Shown here: one piece after another, positions 10,368 to 26,895 of the stretch
How positions within the stretch are numbered: position 1 is the stretch's first letter
Layout of the letters: each line of letters begins with the position of its first letter
From: a virus
Length of the DNA stretch: 26,895 nt
Virus record (IMG/VR): IMGVR_UViG_3300006917_001358
Coordinates: 1-26,895 of that record
Direction: 5' to 3' (one strand)
Program-made: the position numbers and the translations under genes
The notes under the pieces: model-generated
The model's input: only the letters and a program-made list of their open reading frames with translations
The model's database searches: none
Told to the model about the DNA's origin: nothing

Positions 10368-10910
10368 ATGAACAGAATACTTACAGAAGGCTTAGACTAT
10401 GAAGATATGCAGGGACAGGTAGAACCTAAAGTCACTGTAGACGAGTACGCCGCTAAAATGGGTAAAGACAAAGATATCGTAACTGTTACCTTTGTTGTTA
10501 ATTCTAAACTTGCCGGCGATGATTTGGTTAGTTGGTTTGAGCGCGGCTACGATTTTGTATTAGATGCAAGCGTAAGCGAAGGTGAGATTGAACCAAACAA
10601 ATACTTAGTATTTGTAGAAATGAATCGTAGACTTGCAGTACCAGAAAGAATTATTGAATTACTAGAAGATTTACAAACGCTAACCGGATTAAAATTAAAA
10701 GATTGGACTGTAGAAGTTGATGATGAAACATATGATGCTGATATAGATATATTAAAGCAAGTCATCATACTGAATCCAAATGAATATAAGATAGAAGAAG
10801 AACAAGAAGAAGAATTAAACGAAATGCGTACTATTGCAAACCTTAGTACAAAGAAAATACATTCTGACAACGAGTATATAACAAAAATAAAAACCATGGC
10901 GGGGATGTAA
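10368..10910 (+). CDS. Conserved phage protein with possible N-terminal processing site
   Basis: The 180-residue product belongs, from memory, to an uncharacterised family of marine T4-like phages; a typical segment is DDLVSWFERGYDFVLDASVS. It begins MNRILTEGLD, with an L-T-E tripeptide at 5-7 that fits the T4 prohead protease rule (L/I-x-E). This is the weakest of the leader candidates. The C-terminal part is Glu-rich, then basic. A Shine-Dalgarno sequence (AAGGAA) precedes the ATG. The next gene begins 1 nt after its stop. Confidence 0.7.
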   Translation: MNRILTEGLDYEDMQGQVEPKVTVDEYAAKMGKDKDIVTVTFVVNSKLAGDDLVSWFERGYDFVLDASVSEGEIEPNKYLVFVEMNRRLAVPERIIELLEDLQTLTGLKLKDWTVEVDDETYDADIDILKQVIILNPNEYKIEEEQEEELNEMRTIANLSTKKIHSDNEYITKIKTMAGM

Positions 10911-15778: not shown

Positions 15779-16225
15779 ATGACTACAGAACTTTTTAGAA
15801 AATATATTGATATTATTAACGAGTCTGCTAATTTAAGTGTAGAACAATTAGCCACCATTAGCGATGAAGCCTTAGACAAAGCATACGGATATGGTCGTAG
15901 CAGTCCAGGCAATACGTTTGGTTGGCAGGCTAATCTTAAATCAGCAGAGTTTGCTAAGAAAGCCATTGAGTCCGGTATCACAGATATCGATCAAATTGCA
16001 GATGCAATACATAAGGGTTGGAATGTTACTGCTAAAGCATTTGTTCAGAACCCGGAACAATTTGATGACACAGAAAAACTCAAAGCAGCCGGCAAACTTG
16101 AAGCAAAACTAGCACAACGTGAAAAATTAATGAATATTAATTATGCTCAACTACCTGATGATGAGCAGGAAAAAGATCGTGTAGTTGCTAGAGTATTATT
16201 ACAGGCGTTGGCAGGTAACAAATGA
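15779..16225 (+). CDS. RyR-domain-like protein with internal-protein-type leader
   Basis: The 148-residue product has an N-terminal leader, MTTELFRKYIDIINE, ending in I-N-E at 13-15, a possible prohead-protease site. The C-terminal half (about 73-145) resembles the RyR repeat found in ryanodine receptors and in many bacterial and phage proteins: an HKGWN segment and then INYAQLPDDEQEKDRVVARVLLQAL split over 119-143, compared with the family's PYxxLPExEKExDR. The function of RyR domains in phages is not known; a ligand-binding role is speculative. It starts 1 nt after the previous stop and overlaps the next start (ATGA). Confidence 0.6.
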   Translation: MTTELFRKYIDIINESANLSVEQLATISDEALDKAYGYGRSSPGNTFGWQANLKSAEFAKKAIESGITDIDQIADAIHKGWNVTAKAFVQNPEQFDDTEKLKAAGKLEAKLAQREKLMNINYAQLPDDEQEKDRVVARVLLQALAGNK

Positions 16226-16869
16226 AACAAATAGTTGTTATGCCCGGTGGGTTTCATCCATTTCATGCAGGTCATTATGCATTATATAAAAGTGCATTAG
16301 AAGCCTTCCCACAAGCAGATGTATATGTGGCAGCAACTAACGATACTAAAACAAGACCTTTCCCCTTTTCAATTAAAGAGAAACTAGCAAAACTTGCAGG
16401 TGTTGAATCTGGACGTTTTGTTCAAGTGAAAAGTCCATTTAAAGCAGAAGAGATTACAAGCAAATATAATCCTGAAGAAGATGTACTAATATTTGTACGT
16501 AGTGAAAAGGACAAAACAGAACAACCTAAACCAGGTGGTACTAAGAAAGATGGTAGCCCTGCATACTTTCAACCATGGACAGGCAAGAATCTACAACCAT
16601 TTAGTAAGCATGCTTACATTGCATACTTACCAACAGTAGAATTTGGTCCTGGTATCAAGAGTGCTACAGAAATACGCAACGCATGGCCTAATCTTAACGA
16701 TAGACAAAAGACTGCAATGGTTATGAGTCTATATCCATCTACACAAAAGAATCCTAAACTAGCAAAGACCGTTGTTAAAATGCTAGACATAGGCATGAGC
16801 GGCGAGTTAGAGGAAACTACTGAAGAAACAATTGTTTCCGAAAGTACTGATTATCTTCCAGAAAAATAA
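16222..16869 (+). CDS. HxGH-type nucleotidyltransferase (NMN adenylyltransferase-like)
   Basis: The 215-residue enzyme has a Rossmann-like nucleotidyltransferase fold: GGFHPFHAGH (9-18) with the H-A-G-H nucleotide-binding motif and KSATEIR (146-152), equivalent to ISSTxIR. The layout fits the NMN/pantetheine-phosphate adenylyltransferase superfamily and a group I recall from T4-like cyanophages. The substrate cannot be fixed by eye; NAD synthesis is one option, a cytidylyltransferase another. The C-terminal 30 residues form an acidic tail. It starts inside the ATGA overlap with the RyR-like gene. Confidence 0.75.
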   Translation: MKQIVVMPGGFHPFHAGHYALYKSALEAFPQADVYVAATNDTKTRPFPFSIKEKLAKLAGVESGRFVQVKSPFKAEEITSKYNPEEDVLIFVRSEKDKTEQPKPGGTKKDGSPAYFQPWTGKNLQPFSKHAYIAYLPTVEFGPGIKSATEIRNAWPNLNDRQKTAMVMSLYPSTQKNPKLAKTVVKMLDIGMSGELEETTEETIVSESTDYLPEK

Positions 16870-17800: not shown

Positions 17801-17824
17801 AAGCCCCGAAAGGGGCTTTTTTAT
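17801..17824. terminator. Bidirectional Rho-independent terminator
   Basis: AAGCCCC (17801-17807) and GGGGCTT (17812-17818) pair around a stable GAAA tetraloop. A T-run follows on the plus strand; on the minus strand the downstream gene's stop codon is followed by A-rich sequence, the same stem and a TTTCTTG tail. It serves both convergent glycosyltransferase-like genes. Confidence 0.9.
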
Positions 17825-18984
17825 TGTATAAAGTTTTTCTTATTTAATAAGACCTGTTGATTGTAATCAACTATATCTTTTACTCTACTATTGAAATCAA
17901 TAACCTCTTCATTGGACAGTGAGGATAATCGTTTGATTTCTTTAACAATCATAAGTAGGCGTTCAGTCTCATCTACAACCGAATCATAACTTTCATCAAT
18001 TATGCCATCAAACGTTTTGTAGCCTTTACTTCTTAAATGTTTTAGTATATTGTATGTTCCTGACACAATGAACGGATGCTTATAAGCGATTGGTTTATAA
18101 ATCTTTTCTGTAATAAATGTTGGATTGTTATTAAAGAAATACGTTTCAGAAACTACACTGAAATACGATGTAGTATAATAAGGTTCTAGACCAAAATTCT
18201 GTGGTAATCCATATGCTAAATTAAACTCCATAATTTGATTAGTATCTACTATCAGTGGTAGCATGGCGTTTATCTCATTATCATAGTTCAATCTATCTGC
18301 TAGTTTAGGAAATGTGTTTCGCATAAGTTCATGTACATTTTCCTTAACTTGCAATGCAGGAGCATACTTGTGGTAATCTTCTATGGTAGGGCAACTTATA
18401 TGTCCATCCTTAAACAAATCGTATTCATATAGTAAGTGCAGTAATGCTACACGGTGATCTCTAAGCATTCTATTCAAGCATATAAATTTCTTTTTATACT
18501 CAGTAGGTTTAACATGGTCAGTAAATTTATAACTCTTTATCTGTCTCTGCGCTAACTTTTCAAAGTGATCATATGATTCAGTGTGTATATGTTCTGTGTA
18601 TTTTTCTTTAACATAATCACCTAAATCTGTAGAACTAGATATCAGCAATATCTGAGATTTTGGTAGATTTAAGTTATTTGCTATTTCATATGTTACATCG
18701 ACCATGCCATAGTGTGCTTCAGAAGAGCAGTCAATACATAACATAATCTCTCTATTCTGTATAGATTTGATTATAGACTCCCCTAAAATGTCTGCTATAG
18801 ACACTTGATATAAGCCCTTATACTGGGCACATTTTATTATGAATACCTTGTTATTCTTACAAATCGCTGAGTTTTTACTCTCATAAAGATAGTTTAAAAC
18901 GGATTGTCTAAGTTCCTCTACCCTACAACCTCCCCTTAGCGGATCAAATTCTATGTTGGGTATTTTATCTAAGTTAATTATCAT
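17821..18984 (-). CDS. Fucosyltransferase/exostosin-like glycosyltransferase (putative)
   Basis: The 387-residue soluble protein has two suggestive segments: KKFICLNRMLRDHRVALLHL (165-184) and FITEKIYKPIAYKHPFIVSG (290-309). The TEK motif and the following hydrophobic strand resemble the donor-binding region of GT10/exostosin-like GT-B enzymes. The N-terminal 150 residues are less clear. It is on the strand opposite to its neighbours and shares a terminator with the plus-strand glycosyltransferase. It has its own perfect TATAAATA box 5 nt before the ATG and no ribosome site. A glycosyltransferase role is likely, the sugar unknown. Confidence 0.6.
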   Translation of the reverse strand: MIINLDKIPNIEFDPLRGGCRVEELRQSVLNYLYESKNSAICKNNKVFIIKCAQYKGLYQVSIADILGESIIKSIQNREIMLCIDCSSEAHYGMVDVTYEIANNLNLPKSQILLISSSTDLGDYVKEKYTEHIHTESYDHFEKLAQRQIKSYKFTDHVKPTEYKKKFICLNRMLRDHRVALLHLLYEYDLFKDGHISCPTIEDYHKYAPALQVKENVHELMRNTFPKLADRLNYDNEINAMLPLIVDTNQIMEFNLAYGLPQNFGLEPYYTTSYFSVVSETYFFNNNPTFITEKIYKPIAYKHPFIVSGTYNILKHLRSKGYKTFDGIIDESYDSVVDETERLLMIVKEIKRLSSLSNEEVIDFNSRVKDIVDYNQQVLLNKKNFIQ

Positions 18985-19048: not shown

Positions 19049-20035
19049 ATGAAAATCGAAAACATTATAAATGAGACAACCGCAGGGGCAACTGCATCAG
19101 GTTCAGTGGCAGCGGTGGCAAAGCCAATGGGCGAAACACAAAAGCGAGGCAAAATGGGACCAAAAGTCTCTGGTTTAGAACCAGCAGGCAAGGTCATGTT
19201 TGGCAAAGCAAAGAAGAAAGGCCCATATACAAATAGCATTAGCGAAAGTGCTATTAAAGAAGATGAACTATCTGAAGAGGATATGTTCTTAATGAGAGCC
19301 GAAAAGCCTAAGGTTTTTGGATTTATTCCTAAAGGCCAAAGTCGTGTAGACCACGAAGTTGAAATGGCACGTAGTGATTTAATACAAGCCATGAAAAATG
19401 CTAAAACAGTCTATGGATTAATTAAAGACCGTAGCGAAGATGAAGGTCTTGAGGGTTGGGTACAAGAAAAGATTATTAAGGCAGCAGATTATCTAAACAC
19501 TATCGCAGAATACCTAGAAGGTAAGAAGATGCAAGAAATGCAGGGTGGCGTCGTAGCCGCAGGTGGTGTTGGAGAAGGCATGGGATCAGGTTCTGTAGGT
19601 TATGACAATGCTAAAGCAATTGCATATGCAGCCAAAGATGGCACAAGTGCTGATGTTAAGTTAGGTGATGACACAGTAACATTAGAATATCCTGAAGCAC
19701 GTTTTGCATATGGTGTTTATAAGCAAGCCGTTAAAGACGGTCGTGTAGATGAAATCATTAAAGTATTCTCAGACCCTATCAAGTTCCACAAGATGATGAA
19801 GAAGATGGGCGATATGCTTTATCGTGACCGTAGTAAAGAAATGGCACAGGCTGCGGCACAACGTATTGGTCAACCAGGTATGATGGAAGGTGCTAAGGTT
19901 GATCGCATGGTACAACACATTAAGAAGTCTGAAATGAAAGCAGGCAAGAGTGCTGACAAAGCAGAAGATATTGCTTGGGCTACTGCAAACAAACGTGGTT
20001 ACTTAGACAATAAGAATAAAAAGAAGAAGGATTAA
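19049..20035 (+). CDS. Modular, probably virion-internal protein with capsid-targeting-like leader
   Basis: The 328-residue product begins MKIENIINE, ending in I-N-E at 7-9, then an Ala/Gly/Thr-rich linker and basic stretches. Further L/I-x-E tripeptides (I64-E66, L74-E76) flank a short acidic region. A helical module spans about 100-160 (MARSDLIQAMKNAKTVYGLI... GLEGWVQEKIIKAADYL). A second lies at about 185-262 (LGDDTVTLEYPEARFAYGVY). A basic C-terminal module (283-328) carries KKSEMKAGKSADKAEDIAWA and ends KNKKKKD. From memory these modules recur in marine T4-like phage proteins. The leader, basic tail and neighbouring polyprotein point to a DNA-associated protein packaged in the head; this is inference. 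Confidence 0.65.
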   Translation: MKIENIINETTAGATASGSVAAVAKPMGETQKRGKMGPKVSGLEPAGKVMFGKAKKKGPYTNSISESAIKEDELSEEDMFLMRAEKPKVFGFIPKGQSRVDHEVEMARSDLIQAMKNAKTVYGLIKDRSEDEGLEGWVQEKIIKAADYLNTIAEYLEGKKMQEMQGGVVAAGGVGEGMGSGSVGYDNAKAIAYAAKDGTSADVKLGDDTVTLEYPEARFAYGVYKQAVKDGRVDEIIKVFSDPIKFHKMMKKMGDMLYRDRSKEMAQAAAQRIGQPGMMEGAKVDRMVQHIKKSEMKAGKSADKAEDIAWATANKRGYLDNKNKKKKD

Positions 20036-20037
20036 TT

Positions 20038-22248
20038 ATGAGTTCTATCATCAAAGGTATAATGTCTGAGTTGAGCCACTCAAATAAATTTGATGAGGGC
20101 GCTAGGCTAAGCGACTCTTATTATATTCCTAGAATTATTGCCGGCGACTTTCCTAAAAATTCTGAAATAACAGTAAGTACCAAAAAACGAGAATCTAAAA
20201 CAGGTAAAACCGTTAGAGATTTTGGACTAAAAATTAACCCTGGATTCTTGCAGACAAAACTTTTTTATAAATTAGAAGATATTAAAACAGTAATTGATTT
20301 AGGTGATGATGTTAGAAACAGAGGACAATCAACCGCCGGTACTTTAGGGAGAGCAGCGGTCGGCGGCCTGACATTTGGAGTAGGAGGCGCGGTAGTAGGT
20401 GGCTTAACTGGAAAAAATGAGTTTGATGAATACGGGGTCTACGGGCTTGTTTTTAACGACGGTAAGAGGGCAAAAATTAAATTTCATAAAGATTCTATGT
20501 TAGGGGAGCAACTTAGTAACTTTCTTAATAAAAAAGTGGATTTGGGTTTCGGTGAGGTGCCTCAAAATAAGAGTAAAAAATCAAATAATGAACCACCAAA
20601 ACAACCCCAACAAACAATTAAAAAGACTACCAATACTGCCGATACAAACATTGCGCCAATCTCACCTACACCTGCAACATCTGCTACCCAAACACCAATA
20701 GCCGCAAATACTACAGTATCCTCACCAAATGTTAATACTGAACTACAAAAAAGATTGGCAGCACGTAAAGCAGGAAAGCCAGTGTACTCAGGTGGACTTG
20801 AAGAGGGTGAAGATAGACAAGCAGAATTAGAAATGGCATTACAAAAAGCCAGACAGATAACTAAACAAATCAAGTATGATGATACTGCTACAGATATTAT
20901 TGTACAAATTCAAATGCTTGCAGAAAAGTTCAATATTGATAAAGATTCACTTGAATCAGCAATTGATGATGTATATAATGCAAAGAATCAATTAGAATCA
21001 GCAGTATATGGATTAGATGAAGTATTTGAAGAGGCACTGCAACAATCACGTTGGGACGATGACGAAATGCTAGATGAGAATCTACGCAAGTGGTTCAAAG
21101 AGAAGTGGGTTCGCTTTGGTCCTGATGGTAAGATTCGTGGTGCTTGTGCTAGAGGTGATGATAGTGAAGGTAAGCCAAAGTGTTTGCCACAAAGTAAAGC
21201 ACATAGTCTAGGCAAGAAGGGTCGTGCAAGTGCTGCCGCACGTAAGCGTAGAGAAGATCCTAATCCAGAGCGTAGTGGCAAGGCTATCAATGTCAATACT
21301 AAGAAAAAGTCAAACGAAGCAGAGTTAGACGAAGCCTGTTGGAAAGGTTACCACAAAGAAGGTAACAAGAAAATGTTTGGCAAAACATATCCTAACTGTG
21401 TAAAAAATACTAACGAAGAACAAGAATTAGATGAAATCAACCGTAGAGGCTTTTTAAAAGGTTTGGGCGCAGCCGCACTAGGTGCTGCTGGAATGAAGGC
21501 ACAAGCACAGACTGATCAAGAGCAAGATTTGGGAGATGGATTTGTTTTAGTGACAATACCTTTTAGAGGCCACACACTCAAGGCAGTATTGGACAAACAA
21601 ACTAATACATATTACACCACTAACCGTAGAGCAGACGGTACAGGTGCTATTATTCGTAGCATGGCTCCTTATATTATGGTACGTGGTGATCAAGCATCCA
21701 CTGCTATGAACGTCGGACCTGCTACTTTGGCTGCGATGAAAAAAGCTGGTCTAGAAACAATGCAAGAAGGTGTGGCGGAAGAACAACTAGACGAAAAGTG
21801 TTGGGACACACATAAGCAAGTTGGTATGAAAAGTAAGGGCGGTAAAATGGTTCCTAACTGTGTGCCAAAAGAAAGCGTTGAAGAGGGTCATCAGCAATGT
21901 CCCGAATGCGGTGGCGCAATGTACGAAGCAGAAATGATGAATGAAAAGAAAGATGCTTGCTACTATAAAGTAAAGAGTCGTTATAAGGTATGGCCAAGTG
22001 CTTATGCTAGTGGCGCACTAGTTAAGTGCCGCAAGAAGGGTGCAAGTAACTGGGGCACTGGTGGTAAGAAAAACGAAGATACTGCATATGCAGGTGGTAT
22101 GGGACAAGGTGGCAATGCTGGACAAAGTTATCGTAAGTATAAAGTAAAACCATCAGGTATAGCACAGGGTATTAGTGAGACAGAAGCAGTCAATCGTAAC
22201 GACGGTGACGGTTGGCATTGGTATGACATAAAACCAGCAGGGAAATAA
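20038..22248 (+). CDS. Modular polyprotein with LDE-linkers (probable internal virion polyprotein)
   Basis: The 736-residue protein contains at least six parts. 1-170: beta-rich domain with a glycine zipper (GRAAVGGLTFGVGGAVVGG, 104-122). 180-250: Pro/Thr-rich linker. 254-345: acidic helices. 348-425: basic Cys-containing module, WFKEKWVRFGPDGKIRGACA onward, recalling DUF5872-like sequences. 433-455: CW...YPNCV mini-module. 467-575: domain preceded by a twin-arginine-like signal, NRRGFLKGLGAAALGAAG. 587-609: second CW...VPNCV mini-module. 612-736: CPECGG knuckle and KVWPSAYASGALVKCRKKGA module. L-x-E sites lie at most borders (256, 347, 432, 466, 586, 714), mostly in NEEQ-x-LDE contexts. The prohead protease of a T4-like phage would be expected to cut there; not proven. 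It starts 2 nt after the previous stop. Confidence 0.65.
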   Translation: MSSIIKGIMSELSHSNKFDEGARLSDSYYIPRIIAGDFPKNSEITVSTKKRESKTGKTVRDFGLKINPGFLQTKLFYKLEDIKTVIDLGDDVRNRGQSTAGTLGRAAVGGLTFGVGGAVVGGLTGKNEFDEYGVYGLVFNDGKRAKIKFHKDSMLGEQLSNFLNKKVDLGFGEVPQNKSKKSNNEPPKQPQQTIKKTTNTADTNIAPISPTPATSATQTPIAANTTVSSPNVNTELQKRLAARKAGKPVYSGGLEEGEDRQAELEMALQKARQITKQIKYDDTATDIIVQIQMLAEKFNIDKDSLESAIDDVYNAKNQLESAVYGLDEVFEEALQQSRWDDDEMLDENLRKWFKEKWVRFGPDGKIRGACARGDDSEGKPKCLPQSKAHSLGKKGRASAAARKRREDPNPERSGKAINVNTKKKSNEAELDEACWKGYHKEGNKKMFGKTYPNCVKNTNEEQELDEINRRGFLKGLGAAALGAAGMKAQAQTDQEQDLGDGFVLVTIPFRGHTLKAVLDKQTNTYYTTNRRADGTGAIIRSMAPYIMVRGDQASTAMNVGPATLAAMKKAGLETMQEGVAEEQLDEKCWDTHKQVGMKSKGGKMVPNCVPKESVEEGHQQCPECGGAMYEAEMMNEKKDACYYKVKSRYKVWPSAYASGALVKCRKKGASNWGTGGKKNEDTAYAGGMGQGGNAGQSYRKYKVKPSGIAQGISETEAVNRNDGDGWHWYDIKPAGK

Positions 22249-22249
22249 T

Positions 22250-22405
22250 ATGTTAAAAATAGTAACAGGTTTGGCTGTAGTAGGTCAAAAGAAACAAACA
22301 CTAACAGATGCTAAACCTAAAAAAGGTAATATGGTAACTAATGCAAAGCCAATTGATCCTAAGGTAGATCCTAGTGTTAAAATTAAAAAGGTATATCTTA
22401 AGTGA
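22250..22405 (+). CDS. Small basic protein, 51 residues
   Basis: A short frame starts at an ATG 1 nt after the polyprotein stop (TAATATG). The 51-residue product begins MLKIVTGLAVVGQKKQTLTD and ends KKVYLK, Lys/Val/Pro-rich. Its stop overlaps the GTG start of the next gene (GTGA), which supports translation. No family recognised. Confidence 0.6.
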   Translation: MLKIVTGLAVVGQKKQTLTDAKPKKGNMVTNAKPIDPKVDPSVKIKKVYLK

Positions 22406-22629
22406 GAGCCAGTGAGTTTATTATAGAAAATAAGGGTTTACCAATGCCCGGTACTTACGAACAAGAATACAATATGTTCAAAAGTAAAGGGCCTAGACGT
22501 ATTACTGCTATGACCAATGAAGAACAGATTGAAGAAAAATGGTCTAAGAAATATAAAAATAGTATAAATTGTAATAATCCAAAAGGTTTTAGTCAACGTG
22601 CCCATTGTCAGGGAAGAAAGAAGAAATGA
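22402..22629 (+). CDS. Small protein with leader plus Cys/Lys basic module
   Basis: The 75-residue product starts at a GTG within the GTGA overlap. It begins MRASEFIIE (I-x-E at 7-9) and contains NEEQIEE (39-45, another I-x-E). It ends in a basic module, KWSKKYKNSINCNNPKGFSQ (46-65) and then RAHCQGRKKK, which I recall as a recurrent C-terminal unit in aquatic T4-like phages. If cut at both sites, a 30-residue Lys/Cys peptide is released. The leader DNA is 16 of 19 identical to that of the kinase-like gene at 23756. Probably packaged in the head with DNA; inference. Confidence 0.65.
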   Translation: MRASEFIIENKGLPMPGTYEQEYNMFKSKGPRRITAMTNEEQIEEKWSKKYKNSINCNNPKGFSQRAHCQGRKKK

Positions 22630-22766
22630 CACATTTACAAGATGTAAATATGACATACTTTCAACATATGCGTAGGGCATTGACTATAGCAGGAATATTA
22701 ATTGTACACAGTGTTTTTCCAAACGTTTGGAAAACAAAAGCAACAGAATTATTATGTAGAGGATAA
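22626..22766 (+). CDS. 46-residue protein, DUF6356-like
   Basis: A short frame begins in an ATGA overlap with the previous gene and ends 1 nt before the Dps-like start. The product contains MTYFQHMRRALTIAGILIVH (9-28) and FPNVWKTKATELLCRG. This pattern (YFxHMxxAL... FPxVWxxKAxxLL) matches my memory of DUF6356, small proteins of phages and marine bacteria with unknown role. The central part is hydrophobic enough for membrane contact. The tight overlap supports translation. Confidence 0.65.
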   Translation: MTHLQDVNMTYFQHMRRALTIAGILIVHSVFPNVWKTKATELLCRG

Positions 22767-22767
22767 C

Positions 22768-23211
22768 ATGCTAGCAGAAGCATTAAAAACATTATTATCA
22801 ACAAGTTATGCGTTTGTAATTAAAGCGCAACACTTTCATTGGAACGTTGAGGGTCCTAACTTCCCGCAATACCATAAATTCTTCGGTGACATTTATGAAG
22901 AAGTATACGGTAATGCTATAGACCAAACAGCAGAATATATTAGAACACTAGATAGTTACACACCTGGTAGCATGCGTAGATTTAGTGAACTATCAGTGAT
23001 AGAAGAACAGCCTATGATTCCACGTGCTGAACTCATGTTACAAGAACTAGAAGTAGATAATCAAAAAGTTCTTGAATTACTTAACAACTGTTTTGAACAT
23101 GCTGAGGCAGAAAACAAGCAAGGTATCGCTAATTTTATTGCAGAGCGTTTAGATGCACATGAAAAGCATGGTTGGATGTTACGTAGCACACTTAAAAAAG
23201 CCAGAGCATGA
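22768..23211 (+). CDS. dps: Dps-like ferritin (DNA-protection / iron storage)
   Basis: The 147-residue product starts at an ATG preceded by AGAGGA; a longer upstream frame is only an overlap with the previous gene. It has the Dps four-helix pattern: HFHWNVEGPNF (22-32), H36, D41, YEE (43-45) and D52..AE56. Of the usual inter-subunit ferroxidase ligands, H24, H36, D52 and E56 appear kept. The Asp normally four residues after the second His is Gly here, with an Asp one place later. Dps oxidises Fe(II) with peroxide, stores iron and shields DNA. Its stop overlaps the heme oxygenase start (ATGA), tying iron release to storage. Confidence 0.85.
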   Translation: MLAEALKTLLSTSYAFVIKAQHFHWNVEGPNFPQYHKFFGDIYEEVYGNAIDQTAEYIRTLDSYTPGSMRRFSELSVIEEQPMIPRAELMLQELEVDNQKVLELLNNCFEHAEAENKQGIANFIAERLDAHEKHGWMLRSTLKKARA

Positions 23212-23744
23212 CAATACTAAGAGAAGCAACACACGATAAGCATCGTGAAGTAGAAGCACTGCCTATGATTCAGGCTATAATGAAGGGTCCTACTTTTGAC
23301 CAATATGTCTCATATCTATATGAATTAAAAGAAATTTATAGAGTGATAGAGTTGGCTGCGAGAGGTGCAGATATTCTTAAAGATTTACCTGGCATAGAAC
23401 GCTATGATGCTATAACCGAAGATTTAAATGATTTAAACAATAACTATACAAGAGAGTTGATGCCCGGCACTAAAAAGTATATAGATCATATATGGGCAAC
23501 AGCGTATCATAATCCACATTTATTATTAGCACATGTCTATGTAAGACATATGGGCGATTTATATGGTGGTAAGTTAATGGCTAGAGTAGTCCCGGGTGCA
23601 GGCAGAGCATATAAATTTGAAGATAGACCCGGTATCATCAAAGCATTCAATGAGAAACTAACAATGGATTTGGCTGATGAGGCCAATCTAGCATTTGACT
23701 ATTTCATACAGATTTTTGACGAGTTGTATAAGAGTCAAAACTAA
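23208..23744 (+). CDS. ho1: Heme oxygenase (HO-1 type)
   Basis: The 178-residue enzyme has the alpha-helical heme oxygenase fold. It carries the N-terminal LREATHDKHREVEAL (4-18, proximal His at 12) and the distal-helix motif GDLYGGK (116-122), matching GDLSGGQ of HO-1, including the conserved Asp. It cleaves heme to biliverdin, CO and Fe(II). In cyanophages ho1 accompanies bilin reductases (pebS, pcyA); none is visible here, so iron release from host heme is a better guess. It is co-translated with the Dps-like gene. Its LRE at the N-terminus is part of the enzyme family's normal sequence, not a leader. Confidence 0.88.
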   Translation: MTILREATHDKHREVEALPMIQAIMKGPTFDQYVSYLYELKEIYRVIELAARGADILKDLPGIERYDAITEDLNDLNNNYTRELMPGTKKYIDHIWATAYHNPHLLLAHVYVRHMGDLYGGKLMARVVPGAGRAYKFEDRPGIIKAFNEKLTMDLADEANLAFDYFIQIFDELYKSQN

Positions 23745-23750
23745 TAAATA
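23743..23750 (+). promoter_or_regulatory. Late-promoter-like box AATAAATA, 5 nt before the start codon
   Basis: Seven of eight matches to TATAAATA. It overlaps the heme oxygenase stop codon, and TATGT (5 nt) separates it from the ATG at 23756. Transcription is predicted to start on the ATG. No ribosome site. Confidence 0.55.
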
Positions 23751-23755
23751 TATGT

Positions 23756-24958
23756 ATGAGAGCCAGCGAATTTACCAGTAAATTAAATGAGAGCATGCTG
23801 ATTACAGATGTTCCCAATGAGGATTGGCTGGCTGGAAAAGTTGAATACGCAAAAAGCAGAGGTCGTGATAGTTATGGTGTACCATATATGGGATCAACAA
23901 CTGGTATTGTAAGACCTGAACCTAAACTACCTGTGAGTCTTTTAAAAAGACTACCTGGCATGCGCGGTGAACAACGCAATGTCAGAGAAAAAGACTTAGA
24001 AGCCATAATGAAAATAATGAAAGACACAGGTAAACTTCCATTAAGGCAAAATGGTCAAGAATATGCACCCTTCGTTATGGTGGCCTATAATGGCGAAGCC
24101 TGGGTCAATGAAGGTAATCATCGTATCATGGCTGCGGCTGCATTAGGATGGGACGAATTACCAGTAGAGTTAAAGTATTTTGATGGTGGTGAACGTGTTA
24201 AATCAGGTCCATTATACCCAGATAAGATAGGCTTAACACATCCTAAACCCGGCTCTACTGTTGTAATTAATGAAGTAGATGTAGACGAAGCAGAATCAGG
24301 AACTCCTGAGGCAAAGAAAATCACACAACAACTTAAGGATGCTGGGTATAAACAATTAGGTAGTGGTGCCGACGCAACCGTGTGGAGTAAGGATGAGGGG
24401 CAAGTGATAAAGGTCATTATGCCTGATAGTAAAGATATTACACAAGCCGCATATGTATTTAAAAAGTTCTATGAGTTTTGCACACAACATAAAGACTTAG
24501 CATGCTTACCAAAATTTATACCGATACAAGGTAGAGACTATGTAGAATTTAAATTAGGTAATAAGAATTACATACAGGTTAGTATGGAGCAACTGTATCC
24601 TATTAAAGAAGATAGTTTTGCACAGGGTATAGTTTGGTTCTTTAGTGATTATGTATCCAATGGTGTTAAGTGGGACAAAGTTGATGATTTGTTAGGATAC
24701 CCGCAAACATGGTATGAGTTCCATACTAATAAGGCAAATCAGTTTGCAGAAAAATGGCAAAATTTATCAATGATAAAAGGTAATGAAAGAAAACATTCAG
24801 AGATGCAACTACTATACACAGTAATGGAATTGTTATATAGAACAGGTAAGATTAATAAAATGTTTTGGGACTTGCATACTGACAATGCTATGCAACGTAA
24901 AGATGGTACTATAGTTATCATTGATCCATGGTTTGAAAGATATGAGGGAACATTATGA
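23756..24958 (+). CDS. ParB-like / protein-kinase-like fusion with internal-protein leader
   Basis: The 400-residue product begins MRASEFTSKLNE (L-N-E at 10-12). Residues 75-145 resemble a ParB/sulfiredoxin-like fold with NEGNHRIMAAAALGW (118-132). A V-V-I-N-E tripeptide site (171-173) lies in the linker. Residues 195-400 look like a protein/aminoglycoside-kinase fold: Gly-rich loop LGSGADATVW (201-210), possible ATP Lys K219, catalytic loop WDLHTDNAM (371-379) and metal-binding D390 in IIDPW. T4 packages Alt and T7 makes the gp0.7 kinase, both acting on host proteins; a packaged kinase would be comparable. Activity and targets are inferred. The start lies 5 nt after a late-type box. Confidence 0.7.
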   Translation: MRASEFTSKLNESMLITDVPNEDWLAGKVEYAKSRGRDSYGVPYMGSTTGIVRPEPKLPVSLLKRLPGMRGEQRNVREKDLEAIMKIMKDTGKLPLRQNGQEYAPFVMVAYNGEAWVNEGNHRIMAAAALGWDELPVELKYFDGGERVKSGPLYPDKIGLTHPKPGSTVVINEVDVDEAESGTPEAKKITQQLKDAGYKQLGSGADATVWSKDEGQVIKVIMPDSKDITQAAYVFKKFYEFCTQHKDLACLPKFIPIQGRDYVEFKLGNKNYIQVSMEQLYPIKEDSFAQGIVWFFSDYVSNGVKWDKVDDLLGYPQTWYEFHTNKANQFAEKWQNLSMIKGNERKHSEMQLLYTVMELLYRTGKINKMFWDLHTDNAMQRKDGTIVIIDPWFERYEGTL

Positions 24959-25335
24959 AAATTAGCGAGTTATTAAGAGAAGGCAAATTTGATCCTGACT
25001 TTGACGATCAGGAAGAAGTTCCTGCTGATCCAGACAAAGATAAGGTACCACACTTAGTCATGCAACTTAGAAAAGCATTTGACGTAGATGGTAATTATCC
25101 TATACTCTTTAGAGACAATACTAAAGCAAAATTGTCTATGGATGAGATTGTAGGATTCTTAAAAACATATATGAGTCTTAAACCATTAGAAAGAGAACAG
25201 ATGCAAGATATGGCTGCTAATAGTAAAAAAGATTTCATGCAGTCTATAACTAGTTTTAAGAAAACTATGGCACCTGTGCAGAAAATAAAAGGTGATAGAT
25301 ACATGTCACACTTTGCAGGAGATTTAGACAAATGA
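24955..25335 (+). CDS. Small acidic/helical protein with internal-protein leader
   Basis: The 126-residue product begins MKISELLREGKF, with L-R-E at 7-9, the same place as in two other leader genes in this window. The rest is acidic near the N-terminus (DPDFDDQEEVPADPDKDK) and then helical and basic. I do not recognise the family. It starts in an ATGA overlap with the kinase-like gene, with GAGGGA upstream, and its stop overlaps the nuclease start. It is a candidate virion-internal protein. Confidence 0.65.
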   Translation: MKISELLREGKFDPDFDDQEEVPADPDKDKVPHLVMQLRKAFDVDGNYPILFRDNTKAKLSMDEIVGFLKTYMSLKPLEREQMQDMAANSKKDFMQSITSFKKTMAPVQKIKGDRYMSHFAGDLDK

Positions 25336-25775
25336 AACACTTTATTATAGCATTAATTGCAACATTAGGATTGATATTACCTGCATATGCACAAAAAACA
25401 CCACAGGGTGTTATGTACGATGTTACACTAGTACGTGTAACTGACGGTGATACAGTAGTATTCAAGGCTAGTTTTTTACCAGCACCACTAAAGCCAGAAC
25501 TAGCATTACGTGTGTTTGGTGTTGATACTCCTGAAAAAGGATTTCGTGCAAAATGTCCTAGCGAAGCACAACGAGGTGAGGCTGCATCAGCATTCACTAA
25601 GAAAGCAGTAGCCAATTCAAAAACACATCAAGTTTATCTAATGGACTGGGATAAGTTTGGTGGAAGAGTTTTAGGTGATCTATTACTTGATGGTCAAAGT
25701 CTAAGACAAATGTTAATAGCCAATGGCTACGCTAGAGAATATTTTGGCGAAGCAAAACAAAGTTGGTGTAACTAA
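25332..25775 (+). CDS. Secreted staphylococcal-nuclease-like endonuclease
   Basis: The 147-residue product has a Sec signal peptide (1-20, FIIALIATLGLILPAYA, cut AYA|Q). An SNase domain follows: VRVTDGDTVVF (34-44), ALRVFGVDTPE (58-68) and DKFGGRVLGDLLLDG (107-121). R60, D65, E68 and R112 correspond to the R35, D40, E43 and R87 of staphylococcal nuclease, so the active site looks intact. Two Cys (75, 146) could form a disulfide outside the cytoplasm. It would act in the periplasm or outside the cell on DNA or RNA, perhaps for nutrient salvage or against competing phage DNA; inference. Start overlaps the previous stop (ATGA); AGGAG at 25317-25321. Confidence 0.88.
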   Translation: MKHFIIALIATLGLILPAYAQKTPQGVMYDVTLVRVTDGDTVVFKASFLPAPLKPELALRVFGVDTPEKGFRAKCPSEAQRGEAASAFTKKAVANSKTHQVYLMDWDKFGGRVLGDLLLDGQSLRQMLIANGYAREYFGEAKQSWCN

Positions 25776-25937: not shown

Positions 25938-26895
25938 ATGATAAAAAAGATCCTTGTGTTGGCTATAGTTACTGCCTTTATGGGCAGTGTGCCAGCATAT
26001 TCACAAACTACAAACACTAGTACGCAAAGTACAACCGGTGGAACAACTACAAGTACAACAACTCCTATCAACCAAGGAGGTTACACAAGCACCTCTTTAG
26101 TTGATACGAACAGCACTAGCAACAGTACCAGTAGTGTTAACACTACAAATATGACTACTACTAACAATAATAGTACTAGTATGAGTACAGTTAATAGTAC
26201 CAATAATAACAACAATACTAGCACTAGTACCAATGTCAATACCAACAATAATATTCAAAGTGGTACTGTCACTAATATTAACCAAAATACTAATAATGGT
26301 ACTATGACATATAATAACAATAATGTTAATAGTGGTACTGTAACTTATAACAATAATAACAATAATGTCAATACTGGTACTATGACATATAATAACAATA
26401 ATGTTAATAGTGGTACTATGACATATAATAACAATAACAATACGACAAGCACTAACACTAACAATAACGTGATGAGCGGAACCGTTACGTATAATAACAA
26501 TAATGTTTCTACTAACACTAACCACAATATCAATAGTGGTACTCAAACATTTAATAATAACAACGTAAGTACAAGTAATAGTAGAGCCGAAGTTATTAAC
26601 AGCGGCACACAAACATTTAACAACAATAATGTGAGTAGTTCTAACAATACTAATAATAACGTGAACACTAATGTTAATACTGGAGACATGACAAATCGTA
26701 ATATCAATACAACTACATCAAATAACGTAAACACAAATAACAACACTAGCAGTAATACTAACGTTAATATTCAGCAAGGTGAGATGACTAACCGCAATAT
26801 CAATGAAACAACTGTTACGCAGAAAGTCATTCAACCACCACCAACAGCAATCGCTCCGCCTATGATGAGTGTGGGTAGCGATCTTTGCGTAACAG
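25938..26895 (+). CDS. Secreted Asn/Thr/Ser-rich repeat protein (3' truncated by window)
   Basis: An open frame from the ATG at 25938 runs without a stop to the window end (319 codons visible). It starts with a Sec signal peptide, MIKKILVLAIVTAFMGSVPA, followed by YSQ. About 250 residues then consist almost only of Asn, Thr and Ser, with about ten repeats of the type (S/T/N)-G-T-(V/M/Q)-T-(Y/F)-NNNN-V. After a Pro-rich hinge (IQPPPTAIAPPMM) a new segment begins, GSDLCVT, probably the start of a folded Cys-containing C-terminal domain of a kind I recall in aquatic phages. It likely forms a beta-rich fibrous secreted or surface product. AGGGA precedes the start. The long minus-strand frames here are artefacts of the repetitive codons. 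Confidence 0.75.
   Translation, partial: MIKKILVLAIVTAFMGSVPAYSQTTNTSTQSTTGGTTTSTTTPINQGGYTSTSLVDTNSTSNSTSSVNTTNMTTTNNNSTSMSTVNSTNNNNNTSTSTNVNTNNNIQSGTVTNINQNTNNGTMTYNNNNVNSGTVTYNNNNNNVNTGTMTYNNNNVNSGTMTYNNNNNTTSTNTNNNVMSGTVTYNNNNVSTNTNHNINSGTQTFNNNNVSTSNSRAEVINSGTQTFNNNNVSSSNNTNNNVNTNVNTGDMTNRNINTTTSNNVNTNNNTSSNTNVNIQQGEMTNRNINETTVTQKVIQPPPTAIAPPMMSVGSDLCVT
26255..26640 (+). repeat. Degenerate tandem repeats encoding G-T-x-T-Y-NNNN-V
   Basis: Imperfect direct repeats built around GGTACTATGACATATAATAA lie in the Asn-rich gene with variable spacing of roughly 36-60 nt. They are in frame and translate to the repeat unit, so they are coding repeats, not a CRISPR array or integration site. Confidence 0.75.

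Follow-up and report, generated by a model that had tools for sequence, protein, structure and literature searches.

The 26,895-base virus record IMGVR_UViG_3300006917_001358 of IMG/VR, analysed here over its entire length as the window, raises the question of why proteins with unrelated bodies begin with similar short peptides that end in leucine or isoleucine, any residue, and glutamate ([LI]xE). A preliminary description of this DNA had likened these peptides to the capsid-targeting leader of T4 internal proteins (IPs) and proposed that they mark proteins packaged in the head and injected with the DNA. It was right in its observation and, so far as sequence can tell, its interpretation is supported. 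The leaders are genuine and far more frequent than chance would give, and very probably they are capsid-targeting propeptides, whose cargo would be packaged, cut after the Glu by a gp21-type protease with release of its modules, and ejected with the DNA. In its working it resembles the T4 capsid-targeting sequence (CTS)/gp21 system, of which it is very likely a greatly expanded form.

All six N-termini of the preliminary description are found in the window at the coordinates and residue positions that it gave, and one further leader, that of the gene at 20038, had been overlooked. In the lines below, a slash within a sequence marks the end of the site.

19049..19075, plus strand: leader MKIENIINE of the 328-residue protein 19049-20035, with [LI]xE at residues 7-9; in about 40 homologs [LIV]xE nearly always abuts the conserved body start TT(A/S)G.
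22402..22428, plus strand: leader MRASEFIIE of the 75-residue protein 22402-22629 (GTG start), with [LI]xE at residues 7-9; kept in an ortholog that begins MRASEFIIE/GNDKEFHTGG...
24955..24981, plus strand: leader MKISELLRE of the 126-residue protein 24955-25335; orthologs keep [LI]xE at residues 7-9, and the residues beyond diverge.
23756..23791, plus strand: leader MRASEFTSKLNE of the 400-residue two-domain protein 23756-24958, with [LI]xE at residues 10-12; in relatives its VPNEDW domain is preceded either by an N-terminal leader or by [LIV]xE inside a chain.
15779..15823, plus strand: class-3 leader MTTELFRKYIDIINE of the 148-residue protein 15779-16225, with [LI]xE at residues 13-15; the leader recurs on two different bodies.
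20038..20070, plus strand: class-2 leader MSSIIKGIMSE of the 736-residue modular protein 20038-22248.
10368..10388, plus strand: short leader MNRILTE, first listed as a weaker candidate, of the 180-residue virion structural protein 10368-10910 (phrog_13138), with its site at residues 5-7; all 32 distinct N-termini of the family end in hydrophobic-x-E before GL[DN][YF].

To place these leaders among their relatives, open reading frames (ORFs) were called on 275 related loci and grouped into 1,069 protein clusters, and [LI]xE was counted by residue position with one vote per cluster. The motif ends at residue 9 in 83.8 clusters, whereas the positions from residue 21 to 40 average 9.4 clusters each. 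Residue 9 is the one dominant peak, with smaller peaks at 5 and 8, the former partly due to E5 of the main leader. The shared position and N-terminal context, on which the preliminary description had based its case, are thus above chance. About 90 clusters in relatives carry the main leader, and the gene at 20038 carries another class. The consensus M[RK][AI]xE[FI][IL]xE (91 clusters with K or R at residue 2) has E5 in 75% of leaders (12.7x) and F6 in 60% (15x), which is independent support because neither residue was part of the search pattern. Chance, composition or an artefact of translation initiation has some ground as an explanation of the shared N-termini, as [LI]xE is common at about 1% per position and some listed matches are spurious ORFs. 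It is refuted, however, by the eight-fold peak at a single position, by the flat controls ([LI]xD, [LI]xK and [LI]xQ give no residue-9 peak in the 1,069 clusters), and by shuffling: when each cluster is represented by one member drawn at random, [LI]xE ends at residue 9 in 78 clusters, whereas 500 shuffles averaged 9.3 and never exceeded 20. A nine-residue consensus on about 90 clusters and the counts of internal sites given below also refute it, and it retains practically no probability.

Two additional leader classes are recognised. Class 2, MS[NS]I[LI]KG[LI]..xE, is found in 32 of 37 distinct N-termini, on 10 clusters, and class 3 follows the pattern xxELFRKYID[IM][ILM]NE. In the 19049 family, the length of the leader varies, with the Glu at 8, 9 or 10, and the site nearly always stays directly ahead of the body, which suits a cutting site better than a simple N-terminal motif. 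The prefixes of the 10368 family ahead of GL[DN][YF] are likewise 5-9 residues long. Such length changes bear on the explanation that leaders and internal sites are uncut docking motifs for the scaffold or core, and that packaged proteins stay whole. In T4, aspartate at position 10 permits targeting without processing, so the two are separable (PMC9026906). In the present families, on the other hand, conservation centres on the P3 residue and the P1 Glu and tracks the body start despite the changing length, and the internal sites have no N-terminal targeting context. Moreover, the signals for twin-arginine translocation (Tat) described below lie hundreds of residues deep and make sense only if freed. 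Uncut docking is thus an improbable explanation.

The propeptide reading calls attention to the protease and to the virion. The genes of the window include a tail fibre, a GroES-like protein, a clamp loader, PhoH, two virion structural genes, DnaJ and ClpA. This set corresponds to gp288-gp325 of the Agrobacterium jumbo phage Atu_ph07, and because of this match the window is inferred to be a fragment of an Atu_ph07/RaK2-like, T4-related jumbo myovirus. A nucleotide search of the window against annotated phages gave no match, and protein searches were therefore used; the relatives in IMG/VR are contigs reaching 364 kb. The gp21-type prohead protease that the preliminary description expected (PF03420, Peptidase_S77) is present in 14 of 16 large relatives with E-values of about 1e-25 to 1e-29, and Atu_ph07 also encodes one. 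The two relatives with no Peptidase_S77 match are contigs of 239 and 151 kb that may be incomplete. Absence of a prohead protease, which the preliminary description had named as a refutation, thus does not hold for the group, although the fragment itself does not pass this check. In Atu_ph07, gp053-gp062 (L277:39484-49507) form a ten-gene tandem array with the leader M[RK]W[EHDQN][QD]L[TNI]E, each beginning MRWEQLTE, MKWHQLTE or similar, and two neighbours are also leader-like. The array sits in the main Atu_ph07 cluster of virion proteins of unknown function, of which 29 were detected by mass spectrometry (PMC6102473). Such leaders occur in 12 of 45 coding sequences in that cluster versus 1 of 91 sampled elsewhere, most of the 12 being tandem paralogs, so that the P value of this contrast overstates their independence.

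Sites of the same kind also lie inside proteins. The protein 20038-22248 is built from short modules in series, copies of which, mostly at 60-90% identity, turn up in shuffled order in more than 550 IMG/VR stretches and in hundreds of cyanophage records; one module, KKDACYYKVKSRYKVWPSAYASGALVKCRKKGA, occurs in 365 phage records. Hydrophobic-x-E directly precedes the module start in 147 of 160 unrelated contexts, compared to 2-6% at random positions of the same proteins, an unrelated context being a module copy whose 16 upstream residues are less than 40% alike. By module, the counts are 45/50 for CW, 40/42 for WF, 26/27 for WSxKYK, 5/5 for KKDACY, 17/21 for GAKVDRM and 14/15 for Tat. The internal sites of the window are the following.

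19880..19888, plus strand: MME before module GAKVDRMVQHIKKSE in the 19049 protein ([LIVMF]xE before GAKVDRM, 17 of 21 unrelated contexts).
21070..21078, plus strand: LDE before basic module NLRKWFKEKWVRFGPDGK... (fragment 21079-21333, charge +11; 40 of 42 unrelated contexts).
21325..21333, plus strand: LDE before module ACWKGYHKEGNKKMFGKTYPNCVK (21334-21435), of the CWxGY type (45 of 50 unrelated contexts).
21427..21435, plus strand: LDE, then Tat signal INRRGFLKGLGAAALGAAGMKAQAQ (fragment 21436-21795); TIGR01409 above cut-off, site just before RR in 14 of 15 unrelated contexts.
21787..21795, plus strand: LDE before module KCWDTHKQVGMKSKGGKMVPNCV (21796-21945), from the junction-site count.
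21937..21945, plus strand: MNE before the basic module KKDACYYKVKSRYKVWPSAYASGALVKCRKKGA (21946-22245, charge +11; 5 of 5 unrelated contexts).
22528..22536, plus strand: IEE before module KWSKKYKNSINCNNPKGFSQRAHC in the 75-residue protein 22402-22629 (26 of 27 unrelated contexts).
24266..24289, plus strand: INE (ending at 24274) and VDE (ending at 24289) between the domains of 23756-24958; relatives have the kinase domain as a separate protein with a leader of its own.

Because hydrophobic-x-E is also found at internal module junctions, modular proteins such as 20038-22248 look like polyproteins pre-marked for cutting, and the predicted cuts of this 736-residue protein would yield two fragments of charge +11. 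The idea of a T4-like capsid-targeting leader therefore holds but is incomplete, as the site stands at these junctions and in a C-terminal tag as well. The two-domain protein 23756-24958 is a similar case. Its VPNEDW domain follows the leader MRAKEFITE in one phage and an internal VTE or LEE in others, and its kinase-like half is stand-alone in relatives with the leaders MKISELLNE and MKSTDFISE. The INE/VDE junction at residues 171-178 lies inside a predicted disordered linker (residues 148-183, with a predicted local distance difference test score, pLDDT, of about 26-32). With a mean pLDDT of 62, the AlphaFold model is weak overall, and it served only to place domain boundaries and to suggest a rough fold, a ParB/sulfiredoxin-like N-domain and a kinase-like C-domain. 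A sequence search of the PDB with the kinase profile gave no match. The sequence GGLNE within DUF6321-type modules was rejected as a site, since it is MSQ in a jumbo relative and LTA in P-SCSP1o. The latter, a T7-like Prochlorococcus podovirus, carries a stand-alone, very basic 84-residue DUF6321-type gene between capsid and tail genes (L348:2417-2671).

A site at the other end of a protein is found in the cytidylyltransferase-like family.

16834..16866, plus strand: C-terminal tag VSE/STDYLPEK of the cytidylyltransferase-like protein 16222-16869, from homolog comparison.

The C-terminus of this family follows [LIV]xE/xxDYL[EP]EK, and the window member has no N-terminal leader. Among 68 distinct homologs, which are related sequences and not independent events, 60 have the C-terminal tag only, 8 an N-terminal leader only, and none has both or neither; the leaders of the eight exceptions are MFITELFE, MRLLELK, MYISELAE and MFAHELYE. 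As tag and leader replace each other, this is the strongest hint that both are targeting signals. The tag is present on at least two other families, in some alongside a leader. Counted over all proteins, [LI]xE has no strong peak near the C-terminus, and the tag is therefore confined to some families. A cyanophage protein likewise called cytidylyltransferase-like, T4-GC190, was detected in S-SM1 virions (PMC3037559).

The third position of the site is ahead of buried Tat signals, which show the RR-x-FL motif and a hydrophobic stretch. Each of the 17 distinct Tat-like segments begins 2-5 residues past a Glu, and this Glu almost always belongs to a hydrophobic-x-E site. Most of the segments are found at residues 86-917, but two are no more than 13 residues from the start of their protein. 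Of 10 proteins scanned with the curated model TIGR01409, 7 score above its cut-off, including the fragment of the window. The window signal (21436-21510) covers residues 467-491 of the 20038 protein and would become N-terminal only after a cut at the site ahead of it. The segments in relatives (L151, L014, L099, L052, L141 and L102) are mostly inside proteins as well. The domains recognised downstream of Tat signals are GH19, M48 and TonB, all with envelope-type functions, and the domain downstream of the window signal matches no recognised family. GH19, M48 or TonB after Tat signals suggests that some injected cargo may be re-exported. It is a speculative but specific proposal that cutting in the head makes the buried signals N-terminal, for export by the next host. 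Alternatively, this subset of modules could be exported from the producing cell to aid lysis. GH19 lysozyme-like domains suit lysis, and the two signals near a protein start would function uncut; in contrast, most of the signals need an upstream cut, and Tat signals share proteins with head-cargo modules, leaders and C-terminal tags. Lysis is thus a possible but somewhat doubtful role for the Tat-like modules. A general cargo code, with interchangeable N- and C-terminal tags and hydrophobic-x-E linkers, in which the protease would unmask Tat signals so that GH19 lysozyme, M48 peptidase and TonB-type enzymes are re-exported to the envelope of the new host, is put forward tentatively, at somewhat less than even confidence.

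The domains behind the leaders bear on what the cargo may do. Scans of 101 leader proteins with Pfam and PHROGs identified T7 0.7-type protein kinases, amidoligases, GNAT acetyltransferases, GH19, tail-lysozyme domains, LysM, SLT, VanY, superoxide dismutase, a zeta-type kinase and sigma-70 region 4. In one protein, the LysM domain begins, at the first position of its profile, eight residues past the leader. Several other leader proteins look like ADP-ribosyltransferases by eye (LYHATS-type starts) and may be similar in role to T4 Alt. For the leader proteins, Pfam and PHROGs hits name families other than T4 IPI-III, or none, and no direct comparison to T4 IPI-III was made. It could be argued that the head protease does cut the tagged proteins, yet that they serve as structural or scaffold components, degraded or retained in the head and not injected, as T4 gp21 cuts scaffold and capsid proteins too (by annotation) and the 10368 and 9766 families are annotated as virion structural proteins. 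However, the kinases, GNATs, ADP-ribosyltransferase-like proteins and zeta-type kinase have no evident structural role, and the same is true of the LysM/lysozyme, M48, TonB and superoxide dismutase domains, which makes this account unlikely.

Taken as capsid-targeting propeptides, the leaders suggest the following route. As in T4, an N-terminal leader or a C-terminal DYLEEK-type tag would bring the protein to the prohead core. A gp21-type protease would then cleave behind the Glu and free the cargo, a step that the sequences strongly favour. Long proteins such as 20038-22248 would be cut inside the head into enzymes and basic, often cysteine-paired peptides, which probably condense DNA. The cargo would be packaged alongside the DNA, as Atu_ph07 indirectly suggests, and, judging from its domains, ejected with it to be active in the host. 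There, kinases, acetyltransferases, ADP-ribosyltransferase-like proteins, zeta-type kinases and cell-wall hydrolases would act on the new host, and a cargo subset might, more speculatively, be re-exported once a cut has made its Tat signals N-terminal.

Several points weigh against this route. The search for a prohead protease in the window record itself, a 26.9-kb fragment, found none. Packaging, cutting at leaders and junctions, and injection are inferred for this phage. In Atu_ph07, most of the leader genes are paralogs in tandem, and that their products belong to the virion is deduced from the cluster as a whole and not protein by protein. The compared sequences are related and so are not independent samples, and some leader-like matches are spurious ORFs or chance. 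The residue at P1' is unrestricted (A, S, N, T and G are all seen), and internal sites accept V, M or F at P3, looser than the L/I of T4. DHEVEMA modules have no adjacent site, and therefore not every module is bounded by one.

Between the leader-bearing genes of the window lie two genes with no recognisable leader, encoding a Dps-like protein (22702-23211; phrog_3636) and a heme oxygenase (23208-23744; PF01126). In the latter, LRE at residues 4-6 was rejected as a leader, since it belongs to LREATHxxH, the heme-binding motif of heme oxygenase. Downstream, a signal-peptide-bearing nuclease-like protein (25332-25775) precedes a gene cut by the window end (about 25939-26895), with a likely secretion signal followed by an Asn/Thr/Ser-rich low-complexity repeat. 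A 387-residue gene, possibly of glycosyltransferase type, lies on the minus strand (17821-18984) amid plus-strand genes.

If the cargo route is true, tagged "hypothetical proteins" in a large class of aquatic jumbo phages and in cyanomyoviruses would mostly be readable as head cargo from sequence, which would give a direct catalogue of injected effectors and ready phage delivery tags. It would also account for short modules so highly conserved across hundreds of cyanophage genomes, and through buried Tat signals a phage would have a new way of placing enzymes in the envelope of the cell being entered. In the literature outside subscription papers and supplements, no description was found of leaders beyond T4, the C-terminal tag or Tat signals in head cargo. 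The internal sites, C-terminal tag and buried Tat signals exceed what the literature found describes.

Other known systems share parts of this arrangement. In phiKZ, 201phi2-1 and SPN3US, which belong to another phage group with gp175/gp245-type proteases, many head or ejection proteins are cut after a short Glu-ending motif, with several sites per propeptide; a shared EF[IL]xE leader and exchangeable modules are not described in the available parts of the sources (PMC9026906, PMC10052503). Polyvalent proteins of phages and plasmids also hold many effector domains in one polypeptide that is delivered with the DNA (PMC5512222). In contrast, these have embedded peptidase domains or are uncut, whereas the sites here fit a separate head protease, and no embedded peptidase domain was found in the modular proteins of the window. 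The T4-GC119/gp114 proteins of marine cyanomyoviruses (P-SSM2, Syn9 and S-RIM8) have the same CW..NCV, KKDACY and WF-type modules at 60-90% identity. Their junctions are less strict (FxE, VDE, some none), and they are annotated as hypothetical or structural only. Their genes lie in the neck/terminase gene cluster, and adjoining genes start with the T4-type leaders MKSYNEFISE and MKSFQDFLQE.

The T4 CTS system (IPI-III and Alt, with gp21) likewise has a short N-terminal peptide ending in EFIxE on unrelated proteins and a protease of the gp21 family. The pattern search, run on T4 as a positive control, recovered two copies of its IP leader MKTYQEFIAE, in which F7, I8 and E10 equal F/I at 6, I/L at 7 and E at 9 of the consensus here. 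According to PMC9026906, targeting by the T4 leader depends chiefly on residues 4 and 7 and processing on residues 8 and 10, and Alt is also cut near its C-terminus. T4 has only a handful of leaders, whereas here about 90 clusters carry the main leader and three leader classes are found, and a defined C-terminal tag, sites at module junctions and embedded Tat signals are features of the present system.

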